DNA of 37,033 nucleotides, taken from positions 12,969-50,001 of the forward strand of contig JAACQG010000016.1 in the NCBI GenBank assembly GCA_009995045.1, in the 5' to 3' direction. The position numbers and the translations under genes were made by a program. Within the stretch, counting starts at the first letter, position 1. The number at the start of each line of letters is the position of its first letter. A model generated the notes under the pieces. The model worked only from the letters and a program-made list of their open reading frames with translations, did not search any database and was not told where the DNA came from. Below are positions 5,424 to 34,495 of the stretch, in pieces. The DNA comes from Alphaproteobacteria bacterium (GTDB taxonomy: Bacteria > Pseudomonadota > Alphaproteobacteria > Micavibrionales > Micavibrionaceae).

Positions 5424-5993
5424 ATGAACAAACGCATCATAAGCATCCCAAAGATGACTGCGGAATATGCTTGCTTAATTGGATTGGCACGCAGATATCT
5501 CTCCGCCGTTATGGATCCGGCAGTCACTTTGTTAGAGCTGCAGAAGCTCATGTATTTTATGCAAGAGGCTGGTGAGCCATTACAATTAAAGTATCAAAAA
5601 GCTCCTTATGGGCCATATGCACAAAATCTTGGTCATGTCCTGAAAATGATCGAAGGCCATTTCGTATTGGGTTACAAAGATGGTGACGATGATCCGAAAA
5701 AGCCCCTTGAGCTTATTAAAGAAGCCATAGATCAAGCGGAAGATTTTTTGAAATCACACGAGGGGACGAGAAATCATTTCGAACAAGTCACCGATTTAAT
5801 TCAGGGCTTTGAAACCCCTTACGGCATGGAATTGCTCGCAAGTGTGCACTGGGCTTTAAAACACGAAGGCGCTGGACACAACTCGGTGGTTGATGTCATT
5901 CACAACTGGAATGACCGCAAGAAGATGTTCCCCGCTGAGCATATTCATGCGGCAGTCGATGTCCTGCAGGAAAAAGGTTGGGTTAGCGCTTAA
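5424..5993 (+). CDS. Stand-alone DarG C-terminal domain (antitoxin-like, no macrodomain)
   Basis: About 189 residues. The segment VTLLELQKLMYFMQEAGEPLQLKYQ and the following APYGPYAQNLGHVLKMIEGHFVLGY strongly resemble the C-terminal half of DarG, the antitoxin of the DNA ADP-ribosyltransferase DarT. In full DarG this half follows a DNA-ADP-ribosyl-hydrolysing macrodomain; here nothing like a macrodomain lies upstream, and the frame begins where the linker would be. No DarT gene is nearby. No start has a good ribosome site; GTG 5394, ATG 5424 and ATG 5454 are all possible. It is convergent with hsdR and overlaps its end by 4 bases. It may be a remnant, or a free domain that blocks a DarT-type toxin by direct binding, as the C-terminal half of DarG is known to do. 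Confidence 0.75.
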   Translation: MNKRIISIPKMTAEYACLIGLARRYLSAVMDPAVTLLELQKLMYFMQEAGEPLQLKYQKAPYGPYAQNLGHVLKMIEGHFVLGYKDGDDDPKKPLELIKEAIDQAEDFLKSHEGTRNHFEQVTDLIQGFETPYGMELLASVHWALKHEGAGHNSVVDVIHNWNDRKKMFPAEHIHAAVDVLQEKGWVSA

Positions 5994-8900: not shown

Positions 8901-9385
8901 TTCTTTTCAATGTCTTGCAGGCGACCAAGCGTTTTGGCTTCGACCTGTTTTGTCTGTGGCAAAGTATCGGCGGAAAAGGAAATACTGGCATCAGGCTTGT
9001 TCCCCTTGGCATAGGTGCGCACCAGCCAGTAGGAGAAATGAAACAACTCCCGCAAGGCCGTAACGGCGCGTTCCTGACCGATGGCCTTGGTTTCATGAAC
9101 GGCCATATTGCCGAGGTCTTTGATAATCTTGGCTTTGGTCACCAAGGGCGGGCCGACAAGATCCCGGAAACTCGGCTCATGGATTAGGGCGGATAAAGTC
9201 GGCTCATACGGCGAGCGCAGAGATTTATCACTCCGGTACATCCATTTAATTGCCGTTTCCAGCGAAAGCCGCGCATGGAAGCACGCACTGCGCGGATCAG
9301 ACAGCGCCAATTCCTCCGCCCGGCGGGCATGCGTGTACACCTCGATAAATTCATTCTGTAGAAAGTAAAATTGTGATGCTGCCAT
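5990..9385 (-). CDS. hsdR: Type I restriction enzyme, R (endonuclease/translocase) subunit
   Basis: Restriction and DNA-translocation subunit, 1131 residues. In order: a DUF4145/HEPN-like N-terminal helical domain (about 10-130), a charged coiled coil (about 150-205), and an HsdR_N nuclease with D258 in GFVDYV and E273-x-K275 in VVEAKRT (PD-(D/E)XK). The superfamily 2 helicase core follows: ATGSGKT (387-393), DEAH (485-488), GLTATP (508-513) and GRGTRL. The C-terminal region fits the EcoEI-type R subunit. It is the last gene of the WYL-hsdM-hsdS-HEPN-hsdR operon and starts 8 bases after the preceding gene. It looks intact. Confidence 0.96.
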   Translation of the reverse strand: MAASQFYFLQNEFIEVYTHARRAEELALSDPRSACFHARLSLETAIKWMYRSDKSLRSPYEPTLSALIHEPSFRDLVGPPLVTKAKIIKDLGNMAVHETKAIGQERAVTALRELFHFSYWLVRTYAKGNKPDASISFSADTLPQTKQVEAKTLGRLQDIEKKFQESLKAQQQAELERKKSEEGREALEAEIKRLQDEIASVKKVNAAIPDQHDYNEAQTRDAFIDLLLNEAGWALDKPEDREFPVTGMPNNKGEGFVDYVLWGKDGKPLAVVEAKRTKRDPREGQRQAELYADCLEKQYDQRPIIFYTNGYEHWMWDDKRYPPRQVQGFYKRDELELAIQRRSTLKPLAQQKIDQEIAGRYYQTRAIRRISETFEKDNTRKALLVMATGSGKTRTVIALSDLLMRANWAKRILFLADRVALVNQATNAFKKHLPNTAPVNLVTDKNTQGRVYVSTYPTMMGLINETKNGGVRQFGPGHFDLIIIDEAHRSVYRKYRAIFDYFDSMLVGLTATPKDEVDRDTYELFDLERGVPTDAYDLEDAIKDGFLVPPKAISVPLKFPTLGINYNDLSDEEKEQWDAIEWDEDGDKPDYVDPAAVNKWLFNQDTVDKVLKHLMTHGTYVDDGETLGKTIIFAKNSDHAHFIADRFDANYPHLKGKYTRVIDYKTEYAQSLIDDFSEPEKMPHIAVSVDMLDTGIDVPEVVNLVFFKVVRSKTKFWQMIGRGTRLRLDLFGPGQHKQNFQIFDICHNFEFFNQNPDLSDGAGSESLSQRLFEARVELIGNIDGASQSVGDAEKSLRNEISKHLQDEVMGMHLDNFVVRPQRRYVEKYQDKEIWSKIGLDEKTELIEYLSGLPSSVVDDDTAAKQFDLLILRSQLALLNGDKSFLGYKKKVIKTASALEELQNVPMVAREMELILDVQQDEFWTDITLPMLDMVRKRLRSLINLIEKTARPRVFTNFEDEIGEHEEVDLPAMSVGTDMQRFKSKALHFLQQNLNHIAIQKIRLNEPLTPQDIREIERLFIDAGIATQEDLVKLQENIKLGLFIRSLVGLDREAAKKAFAEFQSDKPFSADQLEFLDLIINYLTEKGVMEPSLLYESPFTDIDDMGVEGVFQPDQVTHLINILEEVSKRAAA

Positions 9386-9393
9386 GCCTTATG

Positions 9394-10191
9394 TTATCCC
9401 AAACCTGTTTTCACAGCATCATCTAACTTACGATGAAGTAAAGAAATTAAGGACAAATAATCTGCCGCATCATCTTCGCCCTTCCATAAAATTTTCGGTT
9501 CATGTGCTAACGGATTACGAACTGCACCAAAACATCCCTTCAGCAAAAGCGCAAAGCCCTTATGCTCAGATCTTTCAGTTTCAGATTGTAGCGTATTTAA
9601 CGCCAGTATCGGACGCTCAATGCTGAATACTTTATCAACAAGCGCAGCACCATCCAATGTTTCGCCTGACATATCCCGAATACGCTGGGCCAAACCTTTC
9701 GTGGCCTCAAGAACAGCGTGAAAGTAATTATCCTGCAAAAGTTCTGCCTTACAATATTTACTCACCTCAGCATGGATGCGCCGCCCCTTAAATTTTGCAG
9801 CGATGGTGTTGACCCGCTTGTGAGCCTCATCAATGGTTTCAGCAGCTGTAATGCTATAGAATTTTCCATCTGTACGGTACTCGATCCCGGCAAAGGCAAG
9901 ATGTGCATTGATAGCATGACGAGCCTCTTCAAATGTATCTTGACGGTTCACATAACGAGATGGTTCAAGCAGTCGACGCACAAACTCCATTAACTTTGAC
10001 GGTGTTTTGTCTGCGATTTGATATTTTCTGAATGTAGAGCATAAACGCCGCCATTTCGTACTCTCCCCTGATGTATCCTCGATGCTCATATCAGAGAAAT
10101 GGCGCGAAATGTCGCTACCGCTCAAGTATTCTCCCAAAATTTTTGAGACTTCTTCAATCTGCATATCGGTAAGTTTGGGAGCCGTCGGCAT
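9394..10191 (-). CDS. TIGR02391 (Ymh) family protein with HEPN-like RNPLAH motif
   Basis: A 265-residue protein inserted between hsdS and hsdR. The C-terminal half resembles the TIGR02391/Hypoth_Ymh family, which is often found beside restriction systems. FGAVRNPLAHEPK contains R225-N-x3-H230, an R-x4-H pattern typical of HEPN ribonucleases and set in a helical context. The N-terminal half (to about 100) is a separate helical region of unknown function. It starts 2 bases after hsdS and ends 8 bases before hsdR, so it is an integral operon member. It may be an accessory RNase-type effector that fires when restriction fails, or a structural partner; this is inference from the motif and position. 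Confidence 0.75.
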   Translation of the reverse strand: MPTAPKLTDMQIEEVSKILGEYLSGSDISRHFSDMSIEDTSGESTKWRRLCSTFRKYQIADKTPSKLMEFVRRLLEPSRYVNRQDTFEEARHAINAHLAFAGIEYRTDGKFYSITAAETIDEAHKRVNTIAAKFKGRRIHAEVSKYCKAELLQDNYFHAVLEATKGLAQRIRDMSGETLDGAALVDKVFSIERPILALNTLQSETERSEHKGFALLLKGCFGAVRNPLAHEPKILWKGEDDAADYLSLISLLHRKLDDAVKTGLG

Positions 10192-10193
10192 GA

Positions 10194-11354
10194 TTACAAT
10201 TCCCCCCGAAATGCCCGTTGTTGGAGAGAAAGAAATAGCCGCTCAAATTTTTCAAGACTTTCTTGCATATAAGATTTTTTAGCTTGTAATGAATTAATTT
10301 TTTGAAAATATTCCTTTTGCTTAGCCCGATCTACTTTTGGAACAAAAACTCTGTTTAATGATTTTGAATTGAGATTAAGCATTGTTACTCCGGACGCAAC
10401 AGCCTCAATTTCTTTAATAACTTTCTTTGACCGAATAAGATCAGCAGCAAAATATGGATCAACTTTTGATTTATCAGGTCTTAGGATCATAGATCCAGTT
10501 CCACAAAGAAAGCCCTCCATCTTTCCATCAACTACTGCGCAGCGCCCCATATCACCCCGCCTGCCTAAAATTATATCTCCTTCTTTTAGCAAATATTTAT
10601 GAAGCTCTTTCGCCTTTGCAGGTGAAATGGAAAAAGATGGGTCTGGTATAATCTCGCCATCAATTATATGCGTGGGGTTAATCAATGGAATGCCATTTTC
10701 TATGTAATCCGCTTTATGCAGCAAGGATCCAAAGGGCCCCATCTTAATTTCACTGAAATAATCCGAAAGTTGAATTTCATTATCAGCATCATCAGCACCA
10801 GGATGGAACATCTCATAAAAAATGGATTGGGAGAGGTCGTTGAGGCGGGTGATGGCGAGGCGGCGGGACTGGCGCAGCGCATCTGCCTGATCCAATATCG
10901 CCGCAATACGCTTTTGCTCCTTCATAGAAATAACAGGAACCTGCAATGCTCTTAAAACATCAAGCTTAATGCCTTTCACAGTTGCTCCCGAAGCCTGCCT
11001 TTCTAGAACTTCTGAATTTGCCAAAAGGCAATGAAACAAAAAGCGTGTATCTATTCCTGCTGAAGGAAAAAGAGCCTTTAAGTCTTGGTTAATGGCCATA
11101 TCAATTTTATTGATTGCAGCTTTTCCTACTGCCATCCGCGTTGGAACAATAATTGACCCAGCTGGGATGATATTGGTAGCAGAGTTTTTGACACCATCTT
11201 CTGTAATCATATCAATAGTATTTTCAATGACCGTGGATTTAAAATCCTTCACAGAGGCCCAAGGGATTGAGCCACCCCAATAATTAGGGTTTGATTTATC
11301 AGGGGTTCCGCCACCCTTGATTTCAACCACCTTTCCTAGTTCTACAAAATTCAT
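10194..11354 (-). CDS. hsdS: Type I restriction-modification specificity subunit
   Basis: Determines the DNA sequence recognised by the HsdM and HsdR complexes. It has 386 residues with two target-recognition domains. The first begins at the N-terminus (FVELGKVVEIKGGGTPDKSNPNYWGGSIPW, a classical Methylase_S opening). The second lies at about 195-350 (LSDYFSEIKMGPFGSLLHK). A conserved helical spacer separates them (EQKRIAAILDQADALRQSRR), and a second helix closes the protein. It overlaps hsdM by 4 bases (ATGA). The target sequence cannot be predicted from this reading. The gene is A+T-richer than hsdM, as is common for exchanged specificity genes. Confidence 0.94.
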   Translation of the reverse strand: MNFVELGKVVEIKGGGTPDKSNPNYWGGSIPWASVKDFKSTVIENTIDMITEDGVKNSATNIIPAGSIIVPTRMAVGKAAINKIDMAINQDLKALFPSAGIDTRFLFHCLLANSEVLERQASGATVKGIKLDVLRALQVPVISMKEQKRIAAILDQADALRQSRRLAITRLNDLSQSIFYEMFHPGADDADNEIQLSDYFSEIKMGPFGSLLHKADYIENGIPLINPTHIIDGEIIPDPSFSISPAKAKELHKYLLKEGDIILGRRGDMGRCAVVDGKMEGFLCGTGSMILRPDKSKVDPYFAADLIRSKKVIKEIEAVASGVTMLNLNSKSLNRVFVPKVDRAKQKEYFQKINSLQAKKSYMQESLEKFERLFLSLQQRAFRGEL

Positions 11355-12889
11355 CCCAGCATCTCCTCAAGCTCTTTCATGCCTTTGGCGATGTCTTTTT
11401 CGATCTCGCGCAATTCTTTGAGAATATCTTTGGGCGTGTCGTATTTGATCTCTGCATGCTCAACTTCTTTATAGCGGTTGAGGGAGAGGTCATATCCGGC
11501 CTCGGCAATTTCCGCGCGCGGCACGCAGAAGCTTTGCGCGGTGCGTTTACGCTCTAACTCCGCCCCCTCACGTTCCGCCCAGCGCGCGAGCACATCGGGC
11601 AGGTTGTTTTTAGCGTGATCCTCAGCGTTTAACGCTTCTTTCGGGCGCGGACCCTGTTTTTCTTTCGGCACCAAATCGCCGCGTTTATCATCCAGCGATA
11701 GGCCATCGGCCTGCACATCATAAAACCAGACATGATCCGTTCCGCCCACACCCGTCTTTGTAAAAAACAGAATTGCGGTTGATACGCCCGCATAGGGCTT
11801 GAACACGCCAGAGGGCAGTTTAATCACAGCCTCCAGCTTATGCTCTTCCACCAGCTTTTCCCGCAAGGATTTATGCGCTGTGGAGGAGCCAAACAGAACG
11901 CCATCCGGCACAACAACGGCGGCGCGGCCACCCGTTTTCATCAGGCGCAGGAAGAGTGCGAGGAACAACAGCTCCGTCTTTTTTGTCTTCACAATTTTTT
12001 GTAAATCCTTGGCGCAGCTCTCATAATCCAGCGACCCTGCAAAGGGCGGGTTGGCAAGAACAAGGCTGTATTTTCCGGCATCCTCATTATGCTCCTCAGC
12101 CAAGCTATCGCGATAATCCACCGCCGGATCTTCGATACCGTGCAGCGTCATGTTCATCGCGCCAATCCGCAACATGGTCGGATCAAAATCAAAGCCGTGG
12201 AACATATTGGTGTGGAAATGTTTGCGCGTATCGGCATCGCGCAGCATTTCGGGGTTATGCTCCCGCAGATATTCCGCAGCAGCCACTAAAAAACCGCATG
12301 TGCCGGAAGCCGGATCACAAATCACATCCTTCGGTGTGGGTTTTGTCATCTCCACCATCAGCTGGATGATATGGCGCGGTGTACGGAACTGTCCGTTTTT
12401 ACCAGCGCTCGCGATCATGCCCAGCATATATTCGTAGACATCGCCCTTGGTATCGCGGTCATCCATCGGGATTTGATCAAGTTTTTGCACGACTTTATCA
12501 AGCAAAGCGGGATTGGAAAAACCAAGGCGTGCATCCTTCATATGCTTGCCGTAGCTGGAGCCTTCCGCGCCGAGATTACGCAGGAACGGAAACACATGCT
12601 CATCCACCACGGTCATCATTTCGCCGGGATCAAAATTCTTGAAGCGTGACCAGCGCATATCTTCATAAGAACGGCCTTTGTCATCATTGCCTTCGGGGAA
12701 GATGCGCCGTTCCATCGGCTTTTTTAAGCGCTCGCTCTTGAGCTCTTCTAATGTATGAAGATCATCCAGCCGCTTGATAAAGAGCAGATACGTCATTTGC
12801 TCCATCACCGTCAGCGGGTTTGCTACGCCGCCAGACCAGAAGTCATTCCATATGCTGTCAATTCTGCTTTTGATTTCGCCGGTCATCAT
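11351..12889 (-). CDS. hsdM: Type I restriction-modification N6-adenine methyltransferase subunit
   Basis: Methylates adenine in the target bipartite site using S-adenosylmethionine. It has 512 residues. The N-terminal HsdM_N helical domain (about 1-150) is followed by the Rossmann methyltransferase core, with the SAM motif DPASGTCGF (192-200) and the catalytic motif NPPF (280-283). The C-terminal helices would contact HsdS. The start overlaps the WYL regulator stop by one base (TAATG), so translation is coupled to it. All key motifs are intact. Confidence 0.96.
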   Translation of the reverse strand: MMTGEIKSRIDSIWNDFWSGGVANPLTVMEQMTYLLFIKRLDDLHTLEELKSERLKKPMERRIFPEGNDDKGRSYEDMRWSRFKNFDPGEMMTVVDEHVFPFLRNLGAEGSSYGKHMKDARLGFSNPALLDKVVQKLDQIPMDDRDTKGDVYEYMLGMIASAGKNGQFRTPRHIIQLMVEMTKPTPKDVICDPASGTCGFLVAAAEYLREHNPEMLRDADTRKHFHTNMFHGFDFDPTMLRIGAMNMTLHGIEDPAVDYRDSLAEEHNEDAGKYSLVLANPPFAGSLDYESCAKDLQKIVKTKKTELLFLALFLRLMKTGGRAAVVVPDGVLFGSSTAHKSLREKLVEEHKLEAVIKLPSGVFKPYAGVSTAILFFTKTGVGGTDHVWFYDVQADGLSLDDKRGDLVPKEKQGPRPKEALNAEDHAKNNLPDVLARWAEREGAELERKRTAQSFCVPRAEIAEAGYDLSLNRYKEVEHAEIKYDTPKDILKELREIEKDIAKGMKELEEMLG

Positions 12890-16355: not shown

Positions 16356-17591
16356 TTACCCAATCACATCGCCAATCCGCTTGATGTTGGCCTTTGATAC
16401 GCCGCAGGATTTGGCCAGTTCTTTCCACTGCAGCAGTGCCGTCACGGTTTCATCGATGACGCGCTGGGCGTCTGCCCTTGATAGATCCGCCGCCTCGGCC
16501 AGGTTCAGTAGATGCTCTACACCCGGGTTTTTGCCTTCGCCCATCACCATGGTGCTTTGCTCTCCGCCCGGGCCGCTGGAGAAGGTGAGATCATAGGCGG
16601 GTGCCATGCGCCAAGTACCGCTCTCATCCATAAGGAAAGAGAAGTTTTTGGCGTGATCATCACGGTTATGGCTGAGCACGTTAAACACAGCCAGACGGTA
16701 GATTTTCTGCGCCTCACGAATATCGCGCGTCAAGATCATCGTCGCCTTGATCAGATCATGATAATCGAGCGACGGCACACGGAAATCCGAATGCAGCAAC
16801 CCGCACGCCGTATGCATATGAAGCCGCCCACCATTCTCCATCCGGTCAAAACGTCTGGTTGCGAAATACCCGGCACCCTTTTTCGCGGAGAACAAATGCG
16901 CCTCCATCATCTCCAACCCGGCCTCCTGCGCCATAAGGCTGTAAACATATTCAATCGCTCCGGCATCCTGCCCGTCTGCTGTATTCGCAAATTTAACAAG
17001 CCAGGGCTCATAGCCAGAAGGCAGTTTCTCCACGCCTTGAATGACTTTGGATTTATCACGGCTCACTCCAATCATCGCCTTAGGACGCGCGCCTTGCGAC
17101 CCTCCGCCCAGCGCCAGAAGCTCTTCAAATACTTCCTCGCTATTGCCTTCTAAAATCGCCTGTGACTGATCGGCCAGCGCATCGAGGTTAACGGCCTTGT
17201 CGCGCACATCCTCGCTGTAATCCGGCGCATAAACCAGAGCACCCATACCCGATGCGCCCACATGCGCGAGCCGGTCCAGCGGTGAGAAACTATCCGGGGC
17301 AATCCCTTTACGCCGTAAAGCACGATCCAGCAGAAACCGCCCCCAGCCATCAGGAAGGCTGTCATTAAACAGGCCGGGCAATCCTTCAAACAGGCCCAGC
17401 TCAAAAACCTGTAGCCCCGGCGTAAGGGGCAGTTTAAAGGGTGAGAGCTCAAGCTTTTTGGTCATAAAGCCTGCATCATATTCAAAGAAGATTTTGCCGT
17501 CACGGCGCGCAAGTCGTCCCACAGGAACAGGCGCATCTCCAAAATCCAGCATGACATTCAGCGCGCTCACAGGCGCAAAAGTCTTAGTCAT
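16356..17591 (-). CDS. hipA: HipA-family serine/threonine kinase toxin (module 1)
   Basis: Toxin kinase of a HipBA pair, 411 residues. The N-terminal HipA domain (about 10-110) is followed by the kinase core, with GGGSQGARPKAMIG (about 162-175) as the Gly-rich phosphate loop, HNRDDHAKNFSF (about 302-313) as the catalytic loop and APAYDLTFSSG as the metal-binding loop. All are intact. It overlaps hipB by 8 bases. HipA of E. coli phosphorylates glutamyl-tRNA synthetase; the target of this divergent relative is unknown. G+C content is higher than in the adjacent MBL cassette. Confidence 0.93.
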   Translation of the reverse strand: MTKTFAPVSALNVMLDFGDAPVPVGRLARRDGKIFFEYDAGFMTKKLELSPFKLPLTPGLQVFELGLFEGLPGLFNDSLPDGWGRFLLDRALRRKGIAPDSFSPLDRLAHVGASGMGALVYAPDYSEDVRDKAVNLDALADQSQAILEGNSEEVFEELLALGGGSQGARPKAMIGVSRDKSKVIQGVEKLPSGYEPWLVKFANTADGQDAGAIEYVYSLMAQEAGLEMMEAHLFSAKKGAGYFATRRFDRMENGGRLHMHTACGLLHSDFRVPSLDYHDLIKATMILTRDIREAQKIYRLAVFNVLSHNRDDHAKNFSFLMDESGTWRMAPAYDLTFSSGPGGEQSTMVMGEGKNPGVEHLLNLAEAADLSRADAQRVIDETVTALLQWKELAKSCGVSKANIKRIGDVIG

Positions 17592-24211: not shown

Positions 24212-25261
24212 TTATACGAGCGAATACCAAACGCCTCGGCCATGACCATGCATAACAAGATGCCCCTTTTCGACAAGGGCGCGGAAATGTTCTTTGAGTG
24301 TATTTCGGCTTATGCCTGTGAGTTTAATCATATCGCCAATCGTCACGCGGCCATGTTCGCGAGCTTGTTCGAGAATTTGAACGGAAAGCTCAGGCAATGC
24401 GGCAAGAATAATTTTCTCTCGCTCCACTTTCTTTGAAAGTGCTTGTACTTGGCTATGTAATGACCGTAAGAAAAACAAAATCCACGGCTGCCAGTTCGGC
24501 TCATCCGTTCTGATTGTTCCTTGTGTCTGCCTTAATGCGAGATAATAGCTTTCTTTGCTTTTCTCTATAATGCTTTCTAATGATGAATATGGCACATAAG
24601 CATAACCAGCGCGCAAAAGAAGAAGTGTTGTAAGAACGCGGCTAAGCCTTCCGTTCCCGTCTTGGAAAGGATGAATCTCTAAGAAAACAACAATAAATAT
24701 TGCTATCACGAGCAAAGGATGCAGGGTTTTATCTTCAAAGGCTTCACGCGTCCACTCAACCAATTCTTCCATCAGCTTCGGCGTATCGAAGGGCGTGGCT
24801 GTTTCAAAAACAATCCCGACCTGCTTTCCTGTTTCATCGAAAGCAGCAACAGAATTTGAATTGGTTTTATAATTTCCCCGATGCCGTTCATCTTTTTGGC
24901 TATGCGCGAGTAAATCACGATGAAGCTGTTTTATATGGTTTTCTGTAATGGGTATCTCTGCCCAAGACTGAAAAACCGTTTCCATGACATCAGCATAACC
25001 AGCAACTTCTTGCTCATCTCTTGTTTCAAATGATTTAATCTCTAAATTAGCGAGAAGTTTTTCAACATCGCGGTCAGAGAGCTTGCTTCCTTCAATACGT
25101 GTTGATGAGCCGATGCTTTCAATGGTTGCCACGCGCCTTAGCGCAGAGAGTCTTTCTGGCGCAAGAGTACCTAAAGCACGCCACGCACCTTTGAATTCAT
25201 CTATTGTTGAAATCAAAGTGAGTATATCGGTAGTGATGTTTAAATTGCTTGTTTTAATCAT
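24212..25261 (-). CDS. Fic-domain protein (AMPylase-type) with C-terminal winged helix
   Basis: Nucleotidyl-transferase of the Fic family, 349 residues from this start. Counting from the alternative ATG at 25282, an N-terminal inhibitory helix has S-T-R-I-E-G (60-65), the S/T-x3-E-G/N motif that blocks ATP binding. The complete Fic motif HPFQDGNGRLSR lies at 204-215. A winged helix at the C-terminus (GRVTIGDMIKLTGISRNTLKEHFRALVEKG) probably binds DNA. So the enzyme is catalytically complete but self-inhibited. Start 25261 is preferred because the first seven codons of the longer form are made of an upstream repeat unit. The repeats (25269-25328) may be operator sites for its own winged helix. 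Confidence 0.9.
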   Translation of the reverse strand: MIKTSNLNITTDILTLISTIDEFKGAWRALGTLAPERLSALRRVATIESIGSSTRIEGSKLSDRDVEKLLANLEIKSFETRDEQEVAGYADVMETVFQSWAEIPITENHIKQLHRDLLAHSQKDERHRGNYKTNSNSVAAFDETGKQVGIVFETATPFDTPKLMEELVEWTREAFEDKTLHPLLVIAIFIVVFLEIHPFQDGNGRLSRVLTTLLLLRAGYAYVPYSSLESIIEKSKESYYLALRQTQGTIRTDEPNWQPWILFFLRSLHSQVQALSKKVEREKIILAALPELSVQILEQAREHGRVTIGDMIKLTGISRNTLKEHFRALVEKGHLVMHGHGRGVWYSLV

Positions 25262-25268
25262 GATACCC

Positions 25269-25328
25269 AATAATACACCCAATTACACCCATTTAACAAG
25301 CCAATAATACACCCAATTACACCCATTT
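25269..25328. repeat. Two 26-bp direct repeats upstream of fic, period 34
   Basis: Identical 26-base units at 25269-25294 and 25303-25328, each containing ACACCCAATTACACCC (minus strand: GGGTGTAATTGGGTGT, itself two GGGTGTAWT-like words). Part of a unit recurs at about 27104-27122. They occupy the fic promoter region and may be operator sites. Confidence 0.7.
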
Positions 25329-25448: not shown

Positions 25449-25727
25449 ATGAGTCGCATACTTGAAGAATTGAAAATAGCACGGCAAGCAAAGGGATTAA
25501 ACCAGTCATCCCTTGGGGAGAAGCTTGGCTTGCCGCAAAGTCATGTATCAAAAATAGAACAGGGCGGCACAGACCCACGCCTCTCAACAGTAACAGAAAT
25601 GGCGCGTTTACTCGATCACGAACTCATACTCATTCCACGCCAGCTTGTCCCCGCCATACGCGCTATCATTTCCGGTCAAGATACCGAAAGCTCAGCTTGG
25701 AAACCCGATGAGGGGCTGGACTCATGA
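25449..25727 (+). CDS. hipB: HipB-like antitoxin/repressor (module 2)
   Basis: A 92-residue XRE helix-turn-helix protein (about 6-62, LKIARQAKGLNQSSLGEKLGLPQSHVSKIEQGGTDPRLSTVTEMARLL) with a short acidic tail. It overlaps hipA 2 by 4 bases (ATGA). It should neutralise HipA 2 and bind the paired palindromes just upstream. It may be translated from a leaderless mRNA. Confidence 0.9.
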   Translation: MSRILEELKIARQAKGLNQSSLGEKLGLPQSHVSKIEQGGTDPRLSTVTEMARLLDHELILIPRQLVPAIRAIISGQDTESSAWKPDEGLDS

Positions 25728-26938
25728 GCAATGTTCTTGATGTTTTCTTATACGATCAAAAAATCGGTACAATTACACTGCTGCCCAATGATAGCACCAT
25801 GTTTGTCTTCGAGGATTCCTACATTTCAAACGCGCAGCGCCCCGCGCTAAGCCAATCCTTCATAAAACCAACGGGCGAACTTATCACCGAAACGCGGCCA
25901 TACAGAACAAAACTCCCGCCGTTTTTCTCGAACCTGCTTCCCGAAGGCTCGATGAGAAATTATTTAGCAGAACGCGGCGGCGTAGAACCGGAAAGAGAAT
26001 TCCACCTACTGCGGTTACTAGGCGATGATTTATCAGGCGCAATTACAATCAAAGATTCCGCAGCAAACCCCGCAACAAATCCAAACCTTGATGCGGTGGA
26101 TCATCACCCCAAGGAGCCTGATATATATCACTTTTCGCTCGCAGGGGTGCAGCTTAAATTCTCAGCGCTCATGCGCAAAGGCGGTCTTACTATTCCTACG
26201 CATGGCGTAGGTGGAGATTGGATCGTCAAGCTTCCGTCCGCACAATTTTCTCATGTTCCTGAAAATGAACATGCCATGATGCGCTTGGCCGAAAAAGTCG
26301 GCATTCCCGTCCCTGAAACAAAGCTTGTGCCTATCGAAAATATTACAGGCCTACCCGATCTCGGCGTGCTACAAGGCAAGCAAGCCATAGCCGTCAAGCG
26401 TTTTGACCGTACAGAAAAAGGGGGGAAAATTCATATCGAAGATTTTGCGCAAGTCTATACGGTCTTCCCAGATGATAAATATGAGAAGGTAAGTTATCGC
26501 AACATCGCACAAATGATCTGGACGCTGACAGGCGAAGAAGGCCTGAGCGATTTCATTCGCCGCCTGACATTTATCATTCTGACAGGTAATGGGGACATGC
26601 ATCTTAAAAATTGGTCGTTTATATATAATGACCCGCGAAAGCCGGAGCTAAGCCCCGCTTATGATCTTGTGTCGACCATTCCCTATCTGCCAAAAGATGG
26701 GTTGGCGCTTCAATTTGTCGATACAAAAGACATGCAAAAAATAGGCATCTCCGATTTCCAGCGCCTTGTGCGCAAGGCCGAACTGCCCGAATATCCGGTA
26801 ATGAACACCTTAAAAGAAACCGTTGAAAAAACGCTGACGCTCTGGAATGAAGAAAAGGCGCACTATGATCTTCCAAGCGATATTCAAGATCGCATTTATG
26901 ATCATATGACTAAAACAACTTTGGCAAAATCGGAATAA
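25724..26938 (+). CDS. hipA: HipA-family serine/threonine kinase toxin (module 2)
   Basis: A 404-residue HipA. The N-terminal subdomain (about 1-105, with LPPFFSNLLPEGSMRNYLA) is followed by the kinase fold: SLAGVQLKFSALM as the phosphate loop (about 145-157), AVKRFDR, the catalytic loop TGNGDMHLKNWSF (about 287-299) and SPAYDLVST as the metal-binding loop. Complete in length and motifs. It is only distantly similar to modules 1 and 3, so the three pairs are not recent duplicates. Its end is followed by a duplicated scrap of the fic 5' region. Confidence 0.92.
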   Translation: MSNVLDVFLYDQKIGTITLLPNDSTMFVFEDSYISNAQRPALSQSFIKPTGELITETRPYRTKLPPFFSNLLPEGSMRNYLAERGGVEPEREFHLLRLLGDDLSGAITIKDSAANPATNPNLDAVDHHPKEPDIYHFSLAGVQLKFSALMRKGGLTIPTHGVGGDWIVKLPSAQFSHVPENEHAMMRLAEKVGIPVPETKLVPIENITGLPDLGVLQGKQAIAVKRFDRTEKGGKIHIEDFAQVYTVFPDDKYEKVSYRNIAQMIWTLTGEEGLSDFIRRLTFIILTGNGDMHLKNWSFIYNDPRKPELSPAYDLVSTIPYLPKDGLALQFVDTKDMQKIGISDFQRLVRKAELPEYPVMNTLKETVEKTLTLWNEEKAHYDLPSDIQDRIYDHMTKTTLAKSE

Positions 26939-27045: not shown

Positions 27046-27124
27046 ATATCGGTGGTGCTGTTTAAATTTTAAATTGCCTGTTTTAATCATACCAACCAAC
27101 AAAACACCCAATTACACCCATTTA
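27046..27124. repeat. Duplicated fragment of the fic 5' end and promoter
   Basis: This segment aligns with 25222-25296 in the same orientation: shared ATATCGGT-GTG-TGTTTAAA, TTG-CTGTTTTAATCAT and ACACCCAATTACACCC. Read on the minus strand it encodes MIKTGNLKFK before running out, versus MIKTSNLNIT in the real fic gene. It is a truncated fic remnant on the far side of hipBA 2. Confidence 0.7.
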
Positions 27125-28140: not shown

Positions 28141-28332
28141 ATGAATAATCCAGAATCAGAAATGATGACGCTTCGTGAACTTGCTGCCTATCTGAGGATG
28201 CCGGAAAAAACCCTTTACCGTCTCACTGCAGAAAGTAAAGTCCCTGGCTTTAAGGTTGGAGCCTCATGGCGTTTCCGCAAAGGTGAGATTGATAGATGGA
28301 TAGAGAGACAAGAAACAAGAGAAGCAGATTAA
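28141..28332 (+). CDS. HTH_17/excisionase-type DNA-binding protein, first gene of the SIR2-HerA operon
   Basis: A 63-residue winged helix-turn-helix protein: MTLRELAAYLRMPEKTLYRLTAESKVPGFKVGASWRFRKGEIDRWIE is the standard HTH_17 pattern. The ATG at 28141 follows AAGGTTGAG; a TTG two codons upstream is less likely. Its stop is 2 bases before the SIR2 start. Most plausibly an operon regulator rather than an excisionase, since no integrase is adjacent. Confidence 0.8.
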   Translation: MNNPESEMMTLRELAAYLRMPEKTLYRLTAESKVPGFKVGASWRFRKGEIDRWIERQETREAD

Positions 28333-28334
28333 AA

Positions 28335-29564
28335 ATGGAAACCAAGCAAGGCCATGATGTTTTTAGACAAGTTGGATATATACAACAGGCTCTTTCACAG
28401 AATAAAAAGCCAATAGGTTTTTTCATAGGGGCTGGTTGTCCATTATCTGTAAGAGTTAACCATAGGCATGAAGATGGAAAAGATATTTCTGATCCGCTGA
28501 TTCCCGATGTAGCAGGCTTAACTAAGGCAATAGCCGATAAATTAAAAGGCCAGAAAGATAAGCAAAGTTCTTGGGATAGAATAATTCAGCTTATGCTCGA
28601 AGATGAAGAAGCACATCCAAATATTGAAGACATTTTAACTCGGGTGCGAGCGCTTAGAAGCGTAGCTGGAAAAGGAAATGTGCGTGGCTTTAATGCAGAT
28701 GAGTTAGACATTTTAGACAAGGAAATTTGCAAAATAATTTGTGATGAAGTGAACAAATCTCTTCCGGATAAATCTTCTCCGTATCATGACCTAGCCATAT
28801 GGACGCGAAGCCTCAAACGGGATCTTCCTGTTCATATTTTTACAACTAATTATGATCTTTTGATAGAACAGGCATTCGAGGAATCTTCTGCGCCGTATTT
28901 TGAAGGCTTTGTTGGAGCAAGAAAGGCTTTCTTTGATCTTGGAGCGGTAGAAGATGAAAAATCCTTACCCCCACGATGGTCGCGACTTTGGAAGATACAT
29001 GGTTCGATTAATTGGCGGCTTGATAACCAGAAGAACGTTATACGAAGTGAAAGTATGGAAGAGGGATATAGATATCTAATTTATCCATCACATCTAAAAT
29101 ACGATCAAAGCAGAAAAATGCCATACTTAGCTATGTTAGATAGACTAAAAGACTTCTTGTTCAAACAGTCATCTGTGCTTTTTATTTCGGGCTACTCGTT
29201 TGCCGATGAGCACATTAATGACATGCTGTGTAGAAGTCTTGAAAGTAACCCTGCAAGCACAGCGTATGCATTTATCTTTGGAAAGCTGGATGATGAAAAA
29301 TATAAAAAGGCTAGAGAATGCGCTTTGAACACACCCAATTTAAGTTTAATTGCTTTTGATGGAGCAATTATAGGAAGAAACCCAGCTGGCTGGTCATTCA
29401 ATGAAGATACACGGGCTAATATTCCCAATGATATAATTATCCCTCCAAGCAACAAATCTGATGAAGGTAATGAAACATCTTGTGAATTAAGATTAGGTGA
29501 CTTTTTGCAATTTTGTAGTCTTTTAAAAGGTCTCAGCGGAGGCGTTGAGGACGATGAAGAATAA
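28335..29564 (+). CDS. SIR2-domain protein (NADase-type defence effector) paired with HerA
   Basis: A 409-residue SIR2-like protein. Motifs, counted from this start: FFIGAGCPL (about 29-37), the GAG NAD-binding turn; TTNYDLLIEQAF (about 170-181), with the conserved Asn and Asp; KIHGSINW (about 220-227), with the catalytic His; and FISGYSFADEHINDML (about 283-298). SIR2 domains in phage defence usually hydrolyse NAD+ on infection, and SIR2-HerA pairs (reported as Nezha) are an established defence type. The next gene is HerA, overlapping by 11 bases. It starts 2 bases after the HTH gene with little ribosome site, so it is translationally coupled. Confidence 0.9.
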   Translation: METKQGHDVFRQVGYIQQALSQNKKPIGFFIGAGCPLSVRVNHRHEDGKDISDPLIPDVAGLTKAIADKLKGQKDKQSSWDRIIQLMLEDEEAHPNIEDILTRVRALRSVAGKGNVRGFNADELDILDKEICKIICDEVNKSLPDKSSPYHDLAIWTRSLKRDLPVHIFTTNYDLLIEQAFEESSAPYFEGFVGARKAFFDLGAVEDEKSLPPRWSRLWKIHGSINWRLDNQKNVIRSESMEEGYRYLIYPSHLKYDQSRKMPYLAMLDRLKDFLFKQSSVLFISGYSFADEHINDMLCRSLESNPASTAYAFIFGKLDDEKYKKARECALNTPNLSLIAFDGAIIGRNPAGWSFNEDTRANIPNDIIIPPSNKSDEGNETSCELRLGDFLQFCSLLKGLSGGVEDDEE

Positions 29565-31692
29565 ACCCTCCCAGAACGCAACTGTTCTTGGAACAGTGCA
29601 AGATGTAAGTGGCACATCAGTACGCGTTAAATTATCCGGCAATCATCTGTCTGGCCTAACTTTTGTAAACGGCCAAGGGTACAGAATTGGCCAGTTGGGA
29701 AGTTTTGTAAAGATACCTGTGGGCTACATAGACCTTTTTGGAATTGTTACGCAAGTCGGCGCAAGCGCAGTTCCTGAAAACCTTTCTGCTCAGGAACCGG
29801 ATGGATATAGGTGGTTAACAATCCAATTGATAGGCGAAGGATATAATAGCGGCAAATTCCAACGGGGGATTTCTCAATACCCAACAATAGATGATGATGT
29901 TCATCTAGTTTCGGAAAAAGATTTGGGAAGGATATATGGCAGAAAAGGTGAGCAAAATCATTTGGTAAAAGTTGGGCACATAGCAGGTGCGGAATCTATA
30001 GAGGCCTTAGTTGATATTAATAAACTTGTCACTCGACACTCAGCCATCGTTGGGACAACAGGCTCTGGAAAATCCACAACAGTAGCCGGGCTTTTATCAG
30101 CTTTATCTGAAAAAAGTCGCTTCCCCTCAGCAAGAATTGTCGTACTAGATATACATGGTGAATACGGAAAGGCTTTGAGTGAGAGAGCTCACGTTTATAA
30201 AATAAACCCTGATTCAAGAAATGTGAATGAAGAACAACTTTCCCTTCCATTCTGGGCAATGAGCTTTGATGAATTGATGAAGGTATCTTTCGGGAGCTTT
30301 AATTCCGAAAGCAAGGTTCCAAGTATTCTAATGGAGAAAATTCTAGAATATAAAAAAGAATCTCTGAAACTATACCCAAAATCCGGCATAACATCCGAAA
30401 ATTTAAGTGTTGATAGCCCCGTTCCATTTAGCTTAAATGCATTGTGGTATGAGTTATATTGCAATGAATTTGGTACTTATTACTCTGACAATAATAAACT
30501 GCCTATAGAAGAAAACTGGGCATTTGAGAAGGATGCTGATGGCAACGAACTAAAGGGCAACCCAGCTCTTGGTATTCCACCAAAATTTCGAAAAATAAAA
30601 ACTCAAAAAAAGGAAGAAGATCCCGAAAAAATCAATTACCTTCCAGATGGCCTGAATATTCGGCCTCAATTAGAAAGCCTTGGCGCAAAACTTAGAACCC
30701 CAAGACATGATTTTTTGTTTAAACCAGGCGAATGGCTTCCTGATACTGATGGTCACACTAAAAAAGATCTTCCAGAGCTTATGAAGGGGTGGATTGGCAC
30801 TGAAAAACCCATCACTATTCTTGACTTATCGGGAGTGCCGCCGACCATCATAAATGACGTGATTGGTATTTTACTACGCGTACTATACGATGCGCTTTTT
30901 TGGGCAAGAAATCTCTCCCAAGGAGGAAGAGAAAGACCCCTTTTAATTGTTATGGAAGAGGCACATTCGTATTTGAACGACAATTTTCAGGGGCTGGCAT
31001 CTTCAATCGTCCAGAAAATTGTAAAAGAAGGACGAAAATACGGCATTGGCGCAATGATTGTAAGCCAACGCCCTTCGGAAATAAACTCAACAATCCTTTC
31101 GCAATGTGGCACATTTTTTGCGCTGAGGCTTAGTAATAGTACTGATCGCTCTCATATTACAGGAGCGGTTACTGATAATTTAGAAGGGCTAACAAATATG
31201 TTGCCCATTCTTAGAACTGGCGAATCTATTATCCTAGGCGAAGCCGTAGGACTTCCAATGAGAACTATCATCCAAGCCCCACCAAAAGATAAGCGCCCAG
31301 ATAGCCATGACCCTATTGTTTGCGATGAACGTCCGCCAGAAGAATCTCCATCAGGAGGATGGGGTAATTTAACGGAATACACACAGGATGATATTGCTAA
31401 AACTTGGGAAGACTTTAGTCTCGTTTGGAGGCAACAAAACCCTAACATTACCACAACCCAAAAAGGAGAAATAAACATGGCATGGCAATCTTTTAATTTT
31501 ACTTCATCAAATTTAGCTTCAGCTCGTTATGACGACGTAACTATGACGCTTGAAGTTAGCTTTAATAGTGGCGGTGTATATCAATATTTTGATGTTCCTG
31601 CTCAAGTTTGGGAAGGGTTTAAGGCCGCTGGGTCTCAGGGAAAATATTTGGCCTCTGATATCAAAGGTCGTTACAGATATAGCAAGGTTTAA
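29554..31692 (+). CDS. HerA-type hexameric DNA translocase fused to a C-terminal KTSC domain
   Basis: FtsK/HerA-superfamily ATPase of 712 residues from this ATG (AGCGGAGG site 11 bases upstream; an in-frame TTG at 29545 is too close to it). A HAS-barrel-like N-terminus (about 10-120) is followed by Walker A GTTGSGKST (about 167-175), DIHGEYG, a Walker B region with VMEEAHSYL (about 465-475) and GRKYGIGAMIVSQRPSEI (about 500-517). SNSTDRSHI is a candidate arginine-finger region. Residues 642-712 form a KTSC domain (FTSSNLASARYDD through GSQGKYLASDIKGRYRY). The gene overlaps SIR2. HerA partners of SIR2 form large ring complexes; the KTSC tail is unusual. The gene is A+T-rich. Confidence 0.9.
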   Translation: MKNKPSQNATVLGTVQDVSGTSVRVKLSGNHLSGLTFVNGQGYRIGQLGSFVKIPVGYIDLFGIVTQVGASAVPENLSAQEPDGYRWLTIQLIGEGYNSGKFQRGISQYPTIDDDVHLVSEKDLGRIYGRKGEQNHLVKVGHIAGAESIEALVDINKLVTRHSAIVGTTGSGKSTTVAGLLSALSEKSRFPSARIVVLDIHGEYGKALSERAHVYKINPDSRNVNEEQLSLPFWAMSFDELMKVSFGSFNSESKVPSILMEKILEYKKESLKLYPKSGITSENLSVDSPVPFSLNALWYELYCNEFGTYYSDNNKLPIEENWAFEKDADGNELKGNPALGIPPKFRKIKTQKKEEDPEKINYLPDGLNIRPQLESLGAKLRTPRHDFLFKPGEWLPDTDGHTKKDLPELMKGWIGTEKPITILDLSGVPPTIINDVIGILLRVLYDALFWARNLSQGGRERPLLIVMEEAHSYLNDNFQGLASSIVQKIVKEGRKYGIGAMIVSQRPSEINSTILSQCGTFFALRLSNSTDRSHITGAVTDNLEGLTNMLPILRTGESIILGEAVGLPMRTIIQAPPKDKRPDSHDPIVCDERPPEESPSGGWGNLTEYTQDDIAKTWEDFSLVWRQQNPNITTTQKGEINMAWQSFNFTSSNLASARYDDVTMTLEVSFNSGGVYQYFDVPAQVWEGFKAAGSQGKYLASDIKGRYRYSKV
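31463..31692 (+). CDS. Possible free KTSC protein from an internal start within herA
   Basis: A strong ribosome site (AAGGAG at 31463-31468) stands 8 bases before an in-frame ATG at 31477, exactly where the KTSC domain begins (MAWQSFNFTSSNLASARYDD). Initiation there would release a 71-residue KTSC protein with the same C-terminus as HerA. The ribosome site is better than that of herA itself. The KTSC family is often found as stand-alone proteins of about this size. Dual production is inference. Confidence 0.6.
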
Positions 31693-31694
31693 AT

Positions 31695-32726
31695 ATGCCA
31701 ATTTTGTCTCTTAATCAGAAAAACAAGCGGGTTCAAATCGAGGGGTTTGAAGTTGAAAATCAAATTGTATTTAATTTTTTTGATAAGCTTCCTGCCTCAG
31801 AGCGAGATGAAAAATTACTTAAAGCTATTAATATTGGTGTTCTTGCATTAATGGAAGATCGTTTGTCTTCGTTCCTTTCAAAAACCTCAAATCAATTAGG
31901 CACTGAGCTTGAGAGCCTTAAGATGATTTTTGACATGAAGCAGGAACTGTTCTTTAAATCTGCTGTCAAAGGGATGATCGCTGAAGATGAGATAGCAAAT
32001 TTCTTGAATCAATTTTTCTCTGAACAACGTTTGTTAGACAAAGCTACATTATCAGGGAATACGGTCGGTAAAATTCCCAAAAATAAAACAGGAGATATAA
32101 TTTGCTTTGTAAACGGAAAAGATGATCTGAAAATTGTTATTGAATGCAAATTTGATAAAAGTTTGCGCTTAGGAAACATAGAATCGAAAGATGTTTTCAC
32201 TCGAAAAACAGATACGGCGTGGAGCCAGCTTATCGAAGCACAAGCCAACCGTGATGGCAAAGTAAGTATAATCGTTTTAGACATTTCAGTGGTTGATGCG
32301 CACATTCTCAATACTATTCAAAATGTGCGTTACATTCCAGCAATTGGCTTAATATCTATAATTGACTCTCAAAAAGGTGACTTTAGCAACTTGGCGATTG
32401 CCTATATGCTGGCTCGAGATCTTGCTTTAAATGCACATACAGTAGATTTAGATAAAGATTTACTTGCAGTGCTTATCAACAGAATAATTAAAGATATTAG
32501 TGATGTGATAAGCATCAAAAATTTAGTGCTTGGTAATATAGAGAACAATAAAAAGATATTGTCGCAACTCGAAAGAAGTCTTCTCTCTATGGATTTTAAT
32601 CAGAAATATTTACAAAAATTTTTGAACGATGGCCAAATGTCAAAACAAGACTTGCTAGATTTTTACTCAGGCGAAGAAATAAAAGAACAATATAAAATAA
32701 TCGAAAAAGAACTGAAAGAAATCTAA
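31695..32726 (+). CDS. PD-(D/E)XK-like nuclease protein, third component of the SIR2-HerA operon
   Basis: A 343-residue protein with no family name I can give. A nuclease-like core at about 95-200 has an acidic residue in AEDEI (about 97-99), GD at 133-134 in NKTGDIICFV, and E150-C-K152 in KIVIECKFDKS. A Gln (about 178) in WSQLIEAQANRDGKVSIIVLD follows. This order fits PD-(D/E)XK nucleases. The N-terminal region (30-95) and C-terminal region (235-343) are long helical, probably coiled-coil, segments. It starts 2 bases after the HerA stop and is the last gene of the operon. As a component of SIR2-HerA loci it is not a partner I know. Confidence 0.72.
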   Translation: MPILSLNQKNKRVQIEGFEVENQIVFNFFDKLPASERDEKLLKAINIGVLALMEDRLSSFLSKTSNQLGTELESLKMIFDMKQELFFKSAVKGMIAEDEIANFLNQFFSEQRLLDKATLSGNTVGKIPKNKTGDIICFVNGKDDLKIVIECKFDKSLRLGNIESKDVFTRKTDTAWSQLIEAQANRDGKVSIIVLDISVVDAHILNTIQNVRYIPAIGLISIIDSQKGDFSNLAIAYMLARDLALNAHTVDLDKDLLAVLINRIIKDISDVISIKNLVLGNIENNKKILSQLERSLLSMDFNQKYLQKFLNDGQMSKQDLLDFYSGEEIKEQYKIIEKELKEI

Positions 32727-32778: not shown

Positions 32779-34101
32779 TCAAATACCATTCAAGCGGGAT
32801 TTCATTGCACCTATAACAGATGCGTGTATCTCTTCTGGGAAATCTGAAGGAAGGATTTCTTCAAGCGCTTGCACGGCCTTTTCTACCATCCCGGATATTT
32901 CCTCAAGCGCTTCTTTCGCGATATATTCCGGCAGACCTGCCTTTTGAACAGTTTGCACAAAATGCCGCCCCTGTATGTCGGCCATTTTGTAATGATTGTT
33001 ACTGCCTACGGACATAGCCATTTTCATCTCTTTTTTCTGTAATTGATGCGCGTCAAAAAATGGCTGTGCGGTCAAAACATCATAGAACGGTGTGAGAATA
33101 AAACGCCCGCCTTGCCCTAGATAAATACTGAAGTTTTTTCCATGCCCATCTGTTGCACCAATTAACCAGAAAATGATTTGCGCCTTTAAAAATGCTTTTT
33201 GGTTTTCTGCGGGTTGATCGCTTCCTTTTAGCAAATTCAAAATTTCAACCATGCTAGGCTGTTTTTCATTTGCAGGGCGATTGTCACTTTGATATTTCCG
33301 GCTCGGCGGAATAGATAAAGCCTGACAGCAATCCTCTTGAGGAATACGCAGCAAAATTCCGTCTTTCGTCCATGCACGATCAAAGCGCTCAATAACGAGT
33401 GATTTTGTTTTACCAAAGGTTTTAATTTCGGCCTTGTTTACAGAAAGCCCGAAAGCCTCCATGACCGCCAAGCCGTAAAATTCATTCTCAACACTATTTG
33501 AAAGATCAACGCCATTTGGTAATTCACCAATCTGGGTTTTAAAAATATGCGTTGTCGGGGTTGTCCCTGACGGACGAAACCATTTCCCCTTATGAAATAA
33601 AAGCGCTGTCTTTTCCTGCGCTCCTGCAACAGAAATCCTAAAATCATGTTCTCTGTCTAACCCCAAGGGAACACGCGCCAGATTATTCAAAAGGCTTTCA
33701 ATCTCTTCATCATTGATGGCTTCGCCTTGGATAGAATGCAAATCTGAAAAATCTATGTCCGCATCTTCAGGAAAGAACTGTAATGCTCCTACGCAATCAC
33801 GGCCTATTTGAGCCAAAAGGCTGTAGGCATCTATTCCATCTGCTCCCACTTTTTCCGCTACGCGTGATCTTAAGCTTTCAGAGTCCGGCAATAGGTTTTC
33901 AAATACTGCAACAACGGGCGCACCTTTAAATGCGTCTTCTCGTAATGGCAAAGATAAAGATACGGGATAGGCACGCTCATTCGATAGCCATTCATCGGCA
34001 TACACAAATTCAACCGCACCGCTCGGCTGCTTGGATAAATAGCCAACGATCTCATCATTTTGATACACGCTCAGGCGTGAATGTGTTTTAGACCTCGCCA
34101 T
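32779..34101 (-). CDS. hipA: HipA-family serine/threonine kinase toxin (module 3)
   Basis: A 440-residue HipA closest in layout to the classical E. coli protein. The N-terminal HipA domain (about 8-110, with FENLLPDSESLRSRVAEKVG) is followed by ISVAGAQEKTALL, the Gly-rich phosphate loop (about 152-164), SLVIERFDR, the catalytic loop IGATDGHGKNFSIYL (about 313-327) and TPFYDVLTA as the metal-binding loop. All motifs are intact. Its ATG overlaps the hipB stop by 1 base (TAATG). Classical HipA targets glutamyl-tRNA synthetase; that target is likely but not shown here. Confidence 0.95.
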   Translation of the reverse strand: MARSKTHSRLSVYQNDEIVGYLSKQPSGAVEFVYADEWLSNERAYPVSLSLPLREDAFKGAPVVAVFENLLPDSESLRSRVAEKVGADGIDAYSLLAQIGRDCVGALQFFPEDADIDFSDLHSIQGEAINDEEIESLLNNLARVPLGLDREHDFRISVAGAQEKTALLFHKGKWFRPSGTTPTTHIFKTQIGELPNGVDLSNSVENEFYGLAVMEAFGLSVNKAEIKTFGKTKSLVIERFDRAWTKDGILLRIPQEDCCQALSIPPSRKYQSDNRPANEKQPSMVEILNLLKGSDQPAENQKAFLKAQIIFWLIGATDGHGKNFSIYLGQGGRFILTPFYDVLTAQPFFDAHQLQKKEMKMAMSVGSNNHYKMADIQGRHFVQTVQKAGLPEYIAKEALEEISGMVEKAVQALEEILPSDFPEEIHASVIGAMKSRLNGI

Positions 34102-34349: not shown

Positions 34350-34368
34350 AATCGACTCCTTCGACATC

Positions 34369-34397
34369 ATTATGCGCCAAATCACATAAAACGTCAA
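34369..34397 (-). promoter_or_regulatory. Sigma70-type promoter of hipBA module 3
   Basis: On the minus strand TTGACG (34392-34397), 17 bases, then CATAAT (34369-34374), predicting a start near 34362. The inverted repeat TATG-N10-CATA (34371-34388) covers the spacer and -10, an obvious operator position for HipB. Confidence 0.7.
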
Positions 34398-34495
34398 TAT
34401 CGGAATTAGCACATAAAACATGATTATTAGCTAAATAGCATAAATATGAATTATCGGAATTAACGCATACCCGATAATATCCGATAATACCCGAT
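34384..34495. repeat. Short direct repeats upstream of hipB 3
   Basis: CACATAAAAC occurs near 34384 and again near 34411. TATCGGAATTA occurs near 34399 and near 34452. A 10-base unit CCGATAATAY is repeated in tandem at 34471-34490 and followed by CCGAT. These fill the gap between hipB 3 and the relaxase end and may be multiple HipB sites. Confidence 0.5.

Follow-up and report, generated by a model that had tools for sequence, protein, structure and literature searches.

A 37,033-nucleotide stretch of the genome of an alphaproteobacterium of the family Micavibrionaceae (assembly GCA_009995045.1, contig JAACQG010000016.1, positions 12,969 to 50,001 of the forward strand; henceforth termed the window) carries a SIR2-HerA defence operon that ends in a nuclease-like gene. 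All four genes of the operon lie on the forward strand: a small regulator of the helix-turn-helix (HTH_17)/excisionase type (28141..28332, 63 amino acids (aa) from its ATG; Pfam HTH_17 1.2e-14), a SIR2-family effector of the NADase type, i.e., hydrolyzing nicotinamide adenine dinucleotide (NAD) (28335..29564, 409 aa), a HerA ATPase with a C-terminal KTSC domain (29554..31692, 712 aa), and a 343-aa protein of the PD-(D/E)XK kind (31695..32726), which we term gene 3. The successive junctions consist of a 2-base gap, an 11-base overlap, and a 2-base gap; on re-reading the coordinates, genes and spacing are as given in an earlier, sequence-only reading of this DNA. Here, we describe gene 3 as a portable component that recurs at the 3′ end of loci whose preceding genes, termed the core, differ from locus to locus.

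The operon contains a complete SIR2-HerA pair

The identification of the second and third genes as a SIR2-HerA defence pair is borne out by PADLOC, Pfam, and matches to solved structures. The SIR2 protein matches PADLOC SIR2 (1.7e-131), Pfam SIR2_2 (6e-24), and PDB entry 8w9l (E 6.5e-96), and contains the catalytic Asn and His of the family as N172 and H222, with the NYD and HG[SCTA] motifs kept in 28 of 28 full-length relatives. The HerA protein matches PADLOC HerA (2.3e-157) and Pfam DUF87/HerA (6.5e-35), displays a Walker A motif from residue 167, a Walker B motif from residue 466, and GRKYG at 493, and aligns over residues 3-712 with PDB entry 8wiv (E 1e-214). Sequences of the 8w9l and 8wiv types co-occur in entries 8wld, 8woc, 8wod, and 8wof. 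The pair thus resembles SIR2-HerA (Nezha; 8w9l, 8wiv) in its SIR2 Asn and His motifs, its HerA ATPase, its overlapping genes, and a HerA that can be aligned through the KTSC part. For homologues of this system, NAD+ hydrolysis and a 12:6 SIR2-HerA assembly are described in a passage of PMC11559045.

The regulator gene appears to be a local neighbor. Its product scores 67.7 bits against NCBIfam MAD1, under the cut-off of 80, and the HerA protein matches mad8 (1.2e-20) and mad3 (1.8e-4) only weakly, which does not suffice for membership in MADS (MAD1-MAD8). A tblastn search at E<1e-3 revealed no relative of the HTH gene in the 63 gene 3 loci described below, some of which are too short upstream, and its proposed role as a conserved part of the system is not supported by these sequences.

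Gene 3 belongs to a conserved family with a nuclease-type active site and fold

Gene 3 shares 46-81% identity with 56 aligned homologues, and alignment columns average 77% identity; the arrangement of the operon is therefore not a product of chance. In the resulting 57-row alignment, the PD-(D/E)XK core (31917..32438, residues 75-248) contains the E...D...E-x-K(...Q) set of this superfamily as E97, D134, E150, K152, and Q178, each invariant in 57 of 57 sequences. The only Pfam family detected is PDDEXK_15 (PF24608; 4.7e-4), with 20.5 bits against a gathering score of 27 and a match spanning residues 89-195, outside of which lie long helical flanks; 13 of the 57 family members match this profile at E<=0.01, the best at 3.4e-7. 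An AlphaFold2 model (predicted local distance difference test score (pLDDT) 74.7; predicted template modelling score 0.48) is placed among restriction-endonuclease-like folds by the top rows of a VIA-align comparison. Both alignment and fold match uphold what had been proposed from the letters alone, namely a PD-(D/E)XK-like protein with GD134...E150-x-K152 spacing and long helical flanks. Ratios of nonsynonymous to synonymous substitution rates between 0.027 and 0.082 in 12 pairs indicate strong purifying selection. No match to gene 3 was obtained in PADLOC at E<=0.1, in a profile search of the PDB, or in PHROGs, and none was found in phage records. The sole contig of a viral collection found to contain gene 3 (L065) encodes SIR2, HerA, KTSC, and gene 3 next to a 432-aa open reading frame (ORF) for a putative phage-type integrase.

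The KTSC domain is part of the known system and gene 3 is optional

The KTSC module (31477..31692) occupies the end of the HerA gene, with PF13619 matched at 31501-31674 (HerA residues 650-707; E 9.9e-22; 76.9 bits against a cut-off of 25). It possesses its own start, an ATG at 31477 preceded by the strong ribosome-binding site AAAAAGGAGAAATAAAC, and in the closest relative (L002, Pseudomonadota) HerA ends just before KTSC; the apparent fusion in the window may therefore yield both a tail and a free protein. KTSC is a separate ORF of ca. 69-91 aa in most loci and is fused to HerA in the window and in L031. In annotated plasmids, for which 8 loci were opened out of 21 records with a HerA match, the order is SIR2, HerA, KTSC, with KTSC as its own gene in all eight (one of them from E. 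coli). A survey of 398 genomes of the host phylum revealed eight with HerA at E<=1e-60, all of which also have SIR2 and KTSC. Gene 3 was present in only one of the eight plasmid loci (Paracoccus) and in three of the eight HerA-bearing genomes, the genome of the window included; searching all 398 genomes for gene 3 returned the same three and no others. Since KTSC is present throughout and gene 3 in few, KTSC belongs to the core and gene 3 is optional. Structures of SIR2 with a HerA that has a KTSC tail are already available, as the 8wiv alignment includes the KTSC part, so that KTSC is an ordinary component. A KTSC fusion as a novelty is ruled out: the sequence-only reading correctly placed KTSC at the HerA C-terminus, but the domain does not extend the known system. 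What the window adds to SIR2-HerA (Nezha) is gene 3, which is absent from the remaining seven plasmid loci and five genomes.

Further KTSC architectures were noted: AlbA_2-HATPase-KTSC proteins of 615 aa (L003:773-2620 and L016:1143-2990; Pfam run on the L003 copy) and a PIN_8-KTSC protein of 323 aa located between KTSC and gene 3 (L015:938-1909). KTSC could serve defence proteins in general as an adaptor. A passage on KTSC in PMC7824862 concerns an RNA-binding domain of the lysyl-tRNA synthetase type.

The distribution of gene 3 bears on the idea that it restrains or resets the core as a safety device, for example by clearing activating DNA intermediates. Such a role would suit its terminal position downstream of several cores that are potentially toxic, and the strong purifying selection it experiences. 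The many SIR2-HerA-KTSC loci without gene 3 suggest, however, that the core is tolerated without a restrainer, and we consider this role very improbable.

The combination found in the window has partial precedent. A passage of PMC9503650 mentions, as unpublished observations of its authors, variants with HerA, KTSC, and an endoDNase in which the DNase replaces the sirtuin, and this mutual exclusivity is the basis of a DNA ADP-ribosylation model put forward there. The window is alike in uniting HerA, KTSC, and a DNase-type gene, and differs from the variants of that passage in that sirtuin and DNase-like gene stand side by side; gene 3 may also represent another DNase family. The claim that the composition was undescribed is thus weakened by the HerA, KTSC, and endoDNase set already in print, and holds, as far as that passage goes, for the sirtuin present alongside the nuclease-like gene. 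As a side observation relevant to the ADP-ribosylation idea in that passage, genes for ADP-ribosylglycohydrolases are located near SIR2-HerA-KTSC on Natrinema and Paracoccus plasmids (L072:6859-7836 and L066:1-368, respectively).

Gene 3 follows several different ATPase cores

We examined 63 loci containing gene 3. They were gathered by exact peptide patterns, which favors close relatives, and derive mostly from Bacteroidota, with many metagenome-assembled genomes among them. For each core cluster, a single representative was searched against Pfam and PADLOC, and other members were labelled by BLAST clustering; L019 and L033 received their labels solely through a 256-aa and a 238-aa member. 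The scripts that used these labels covered 62 of the 63 loci, leaving out L059, plus the copy in the window. A HerA-KTSC core precedes gene 3 in 30 loci, with SIR2 visible in 28 and the other two contigs beginning inside HerA. A further 24 loci encode a P-loop ATPase core other than HerA: an OLD-like protein with AAA_15 and Toprim (10 loci), an AAA_13 protein (8 loci; PADLOC PDC-S06, PrrC-like), a weakly LmuB-like ATPase accompanied by a second protein (4 loci, cluster c16), or another SMC/LmuB-like ATPase (2 loci, cluster c37). One locus encodes an AlbA_2-HATPase-KTSC protein with KTSC, four (L047, L053, L057, L059) show no core in the stretch read, which for L059 had ORFs listed only from ca. 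base 1,900, three are cut by the contig end, and one (L064) is a remnant. In this last locus (L064:6815-7816), the start of HerA (query residues 6-68) runs in-frame into gene 3, probably as the relic of an operon deletion.

Non-HerA cores form separate BLAST clusters. All of them have the appearance of ABC/SMC-type ATPases and could be distantly related; c16 and c37, both LmuB-like (4.7e-5 without a Pfam match, and 4.9e-16), may represent one broad kind. An AlphaFold2 model of an LmuB-like core built from 4 rows reached a pLDDT of 55. One representative each of AAA_13, c16, and c37 contains a CxxC pair, which can be read as a zinc hook. A small gene of the KTSC or WYL type is located upstream in 17 of the 24 non-HerA ATPase loci, and four of the other seven have less than 2 kb of upstream sequence. 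With hhalign, cluster c10 matches KTSC (probability 86) and the WYL-type cluster c3 matches the WYL protein c41 (probability 91); c3 and c10 did not match each other.

The sequence-only reading had treated gene 3 as dedicated to the HerA ring and had itself named homologues unlinked to SIR2-HerA as evidence against this claim. The 24 loci with other ATPase cores, together with the four without a core in view, are such homologues, and a SIR2-HerA-specific subunit is ruled out.

The main rival to the reading developed below is that gene 3 acts as an independent second effector which cleaves DNA in parallel to the core, combining restriction with abortive NAD depletion and without any signalling between the two. 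Its invariant active site would fit such a role, as would the occurrence of cores without gene 3 and of gene 3 copies without a core in view. Against this, gene 3 follows different cores at median distances of only 2 (SIR2-HerA), 2 (AAA_13), and 5.5 bases (OLD loci), a tightness that suggests more than co-location, and the operon encodes no modification partner, which leaves discrimination between self and non-self unexplained. We therefore judge a purely parallel effector unlikely.

Cores are exchanged next to a conserved gene 3

The phylogeny of gene 3, built from 60 rows (the window and 59 loci; L062, L063, and L064, being partial or fused, were excluded, and only the last 343 residues of L057 were used), does not simply mirror the type of core. 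Eight core labels need 21 changes on the tree, and well-supported branches alone force at least four changes for SIR2-HerA and at least five for AAA_13, with bootstrap values not fully settled. Among loci with different cores, leaving aside rows labelled other or truncated, 33 pairs have gene 3 proteins at least 90% identical and up to 97.3%, and proteins with 95-97% identity are found behind different cores. Two observations weigh against free exchange: core labels are more clustered than in shuffles (21 changes against a mean of 27.2; none of 200 shuffles gave so low a value), and six OLD loci group in a clade.

Divergence within SIR2-HerA loci points in the same direction as the tree. In 28 of these 30 loci (two incomplete cores omitted, the window excluded), HerA and SIR2 identities correlate at 0.84, whereas gene 3 identity barely follows that of HerA (0.20) or SIR2 (0.25). 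These values bear on the mechanism first proposed for the operon, in which gene 3 is attached to the HerA ring and a single complex, through HerA, couples the sensing of DNA to its cleavage as well as to NAD depletion. Operon coupling agrees with this mechanism, and there is a known parallel in DUF4297-HerA, in which a HerA-type ATPase is likewise encoded with a PD-(D/E)XK nuclease and, according to a passage of PMC11291478, both form one complex. In that system, as presented there, the nuclease is the sole partner, whereas relatives of gene 3 also serve HerA-less cores. Gene 3 has no Pfam match to DUF4297 at E<=0.1; the superfamily fold may still be common to both. With nearly identical gene 3 proteins behind HerA-less cores and a divergence almost uncoupled from that of HerA, a dedicated HerA complex is improbable.

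Individual locus comparisons reveal the exchange at the DNA level. L010, L011, and L004 have an upstream gene pair (in L014 Eco57I-type methylases by Pfam), gene 3, and a downstream piece in common with L014; the former have SIR2-HerA cores and L014 an AAA_13 core. Both flanks and gene 3 are also common to L023, L027, and L026, but the SIR2-HerA core of L023 and L027 belongs to another lineage than that of L026 (HerA 46% alike). In the pairs L020/L061 and L031/L054, upstream flank and gene 3 are common and the cores differ. Homology is lost either behind the upstream gene or within the spacer; it resumes no more than ca. 20 bases from the start codon of gene 3. Between L023 and L027, the upstream flank is ca. 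86% identical, followed by 97-100% identity from ca. 3.9 kb through the core and ca. 190 bases into gene 3; the remainder of gene 3 shows 89-99% and the downstream region 81-89%, save one 150-base window at 50%. We interpret this profile as a tract of recent transfer, one end of which lies within gene 3. Two named strains, F. aquatile with an OLD core and F. cucumis with an LmuB-like core, show 81% DNA identity from the start of gene 3 into the next gene and have only 33 bases in common in their cores. Since core swapping is seen in these two named strains, assembly or binning errors are an unlikely source of it. Separately, a HerA stretch in L010 and L011 (ca. L010:5600-6190) is 61-74% alike within cores that are otherwise 89-100% alike, consistent with a replacement within the HerA gene.

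Exchange of cores beside gene 3, with a transfer tract ending inside it, could also reflect a nuclease that promotes homing or recombination, whose cuts drive core exchange and for which defence is a by-product. The same pattern would be expected, without any special nuclease, from ordinary homologous recombination within a conserved gene at the 3′ end, and the close coupling of gene 3 to the core also speaks against a homing function, to which we assign a very low likelihood.

Genomic surroundings of the operon

Gene 3 was found in none of 57 other genomes of the host's relatives searched, and the operon was therefore probably acquired. No near match to its DNA was found in E. coli genomes. 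The surrounding region also holds type I restriction genes, an integrase, three HipA-type genes, an ArdA-like gene, and a MobA/MobL relaxase. Between the R and S genes of the type I restriction system (5990-12889) lies an additional gene (9394-10191), a member of the Hypoth_Ymh family. The HipA-type genes are located at 16356-17591, 25724-26938, and 32779-34101, and the SIR2-HerA operon is bracketed by two of these, each accompanied by an HTH partner. A direct repeat of ca. 70-80 bases (25224-25295 and 27046-27124, 88-91% alike in two pieces) flanks the HipBA pair at 25449-26938 and perhaps delimits an inserted unit. At the 5′ end of a HipB-like gene, two 52-base repeats (34364-34469) lie side by side and are 73% alike. 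Rfam detected nothing in the window at gathering scores.

Discussion

We propose, with a probability of roughly 0.45, that gene 3 encodes a nuclease that is optional, portable, and accessory to the core, that it forms the constant 3′ end of a locus in which cores are exchanged, and that, without being dedicated to HerA, it triggers the core through DNA cuts. At the level of sequence, this proposal builds on the conserved active site, the fold match, purifying selection, operon coupling, repeated core exchange, and the one transfer tract ending in gene 3. Because near-identical gene 3 proteins stand behind different cores, a tailored interface with each core is unlikely; gene 3 therefore most likely meets its cores through a common substrate. 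We favor DNA, which is what these cores have in common, as this substrate and infer that its cleavage yields ends sensed by the ATPases. On this view, invader DNA would be nicked or cut by gene 3, and the DNA-sensing ATPase encoded alongside, of whatever type, would be loaded and triggered by the resulting ends or damaged DNA. In the window, triggered HerA would switch on the SIR2 NADase, and the core, a complete SIR2-HerA-KTSC system, would by homology be expected to deplete NAD+. At other loci, the responding core would be an OLD-like ATPase-Toprim protein, an AAA_13/PrrC-like ATPase, or an LmuB/SMC-like ATPase, often together with a small KTSC- or WYL-type protein. The more specific notion that gene 3 is both a common trigger nuclease and a recombination anchor, i.e., that one enzyme makes the signal for several ATPase cores and is kept as NADase, Toprim nuclease, PrrC-like, and LmuB-like cores are swapped, is doubtful at present.

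A locus with exchangeable defence genes recalls the hotspots of P2-like phages and P4-like satellites, in which variable defence genes reportedly occupy a fixed place (PMC9122126); compared with those hotspots, the constant neighbor here is a conserved nuclease-like gene of the same operon. Among the matches listed in open-licence literature (titles and beginnings of abstracts), there was no description of a nuclease common to these cores. SIR2-HerA-KTSC is a known type, and gene 3 is the new part. Its presence beside a sirtuin bears on the proposal, in the cited passage of PMC9503650, that sirtuin and DNase exclude each other in HerA systems. Catalogues mostly treat defence systems as gene sets of fixed composition; gene 3, highly conserved, nuclease-like, and without a PADLOC match, is common to SIR2-HerA and several ATPase core families and marks a locus of core exchange. 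If it is a common trigger, gene 3 would explain how different ATPase systems plug into one sensing step and would provide a handle for finding further cores.
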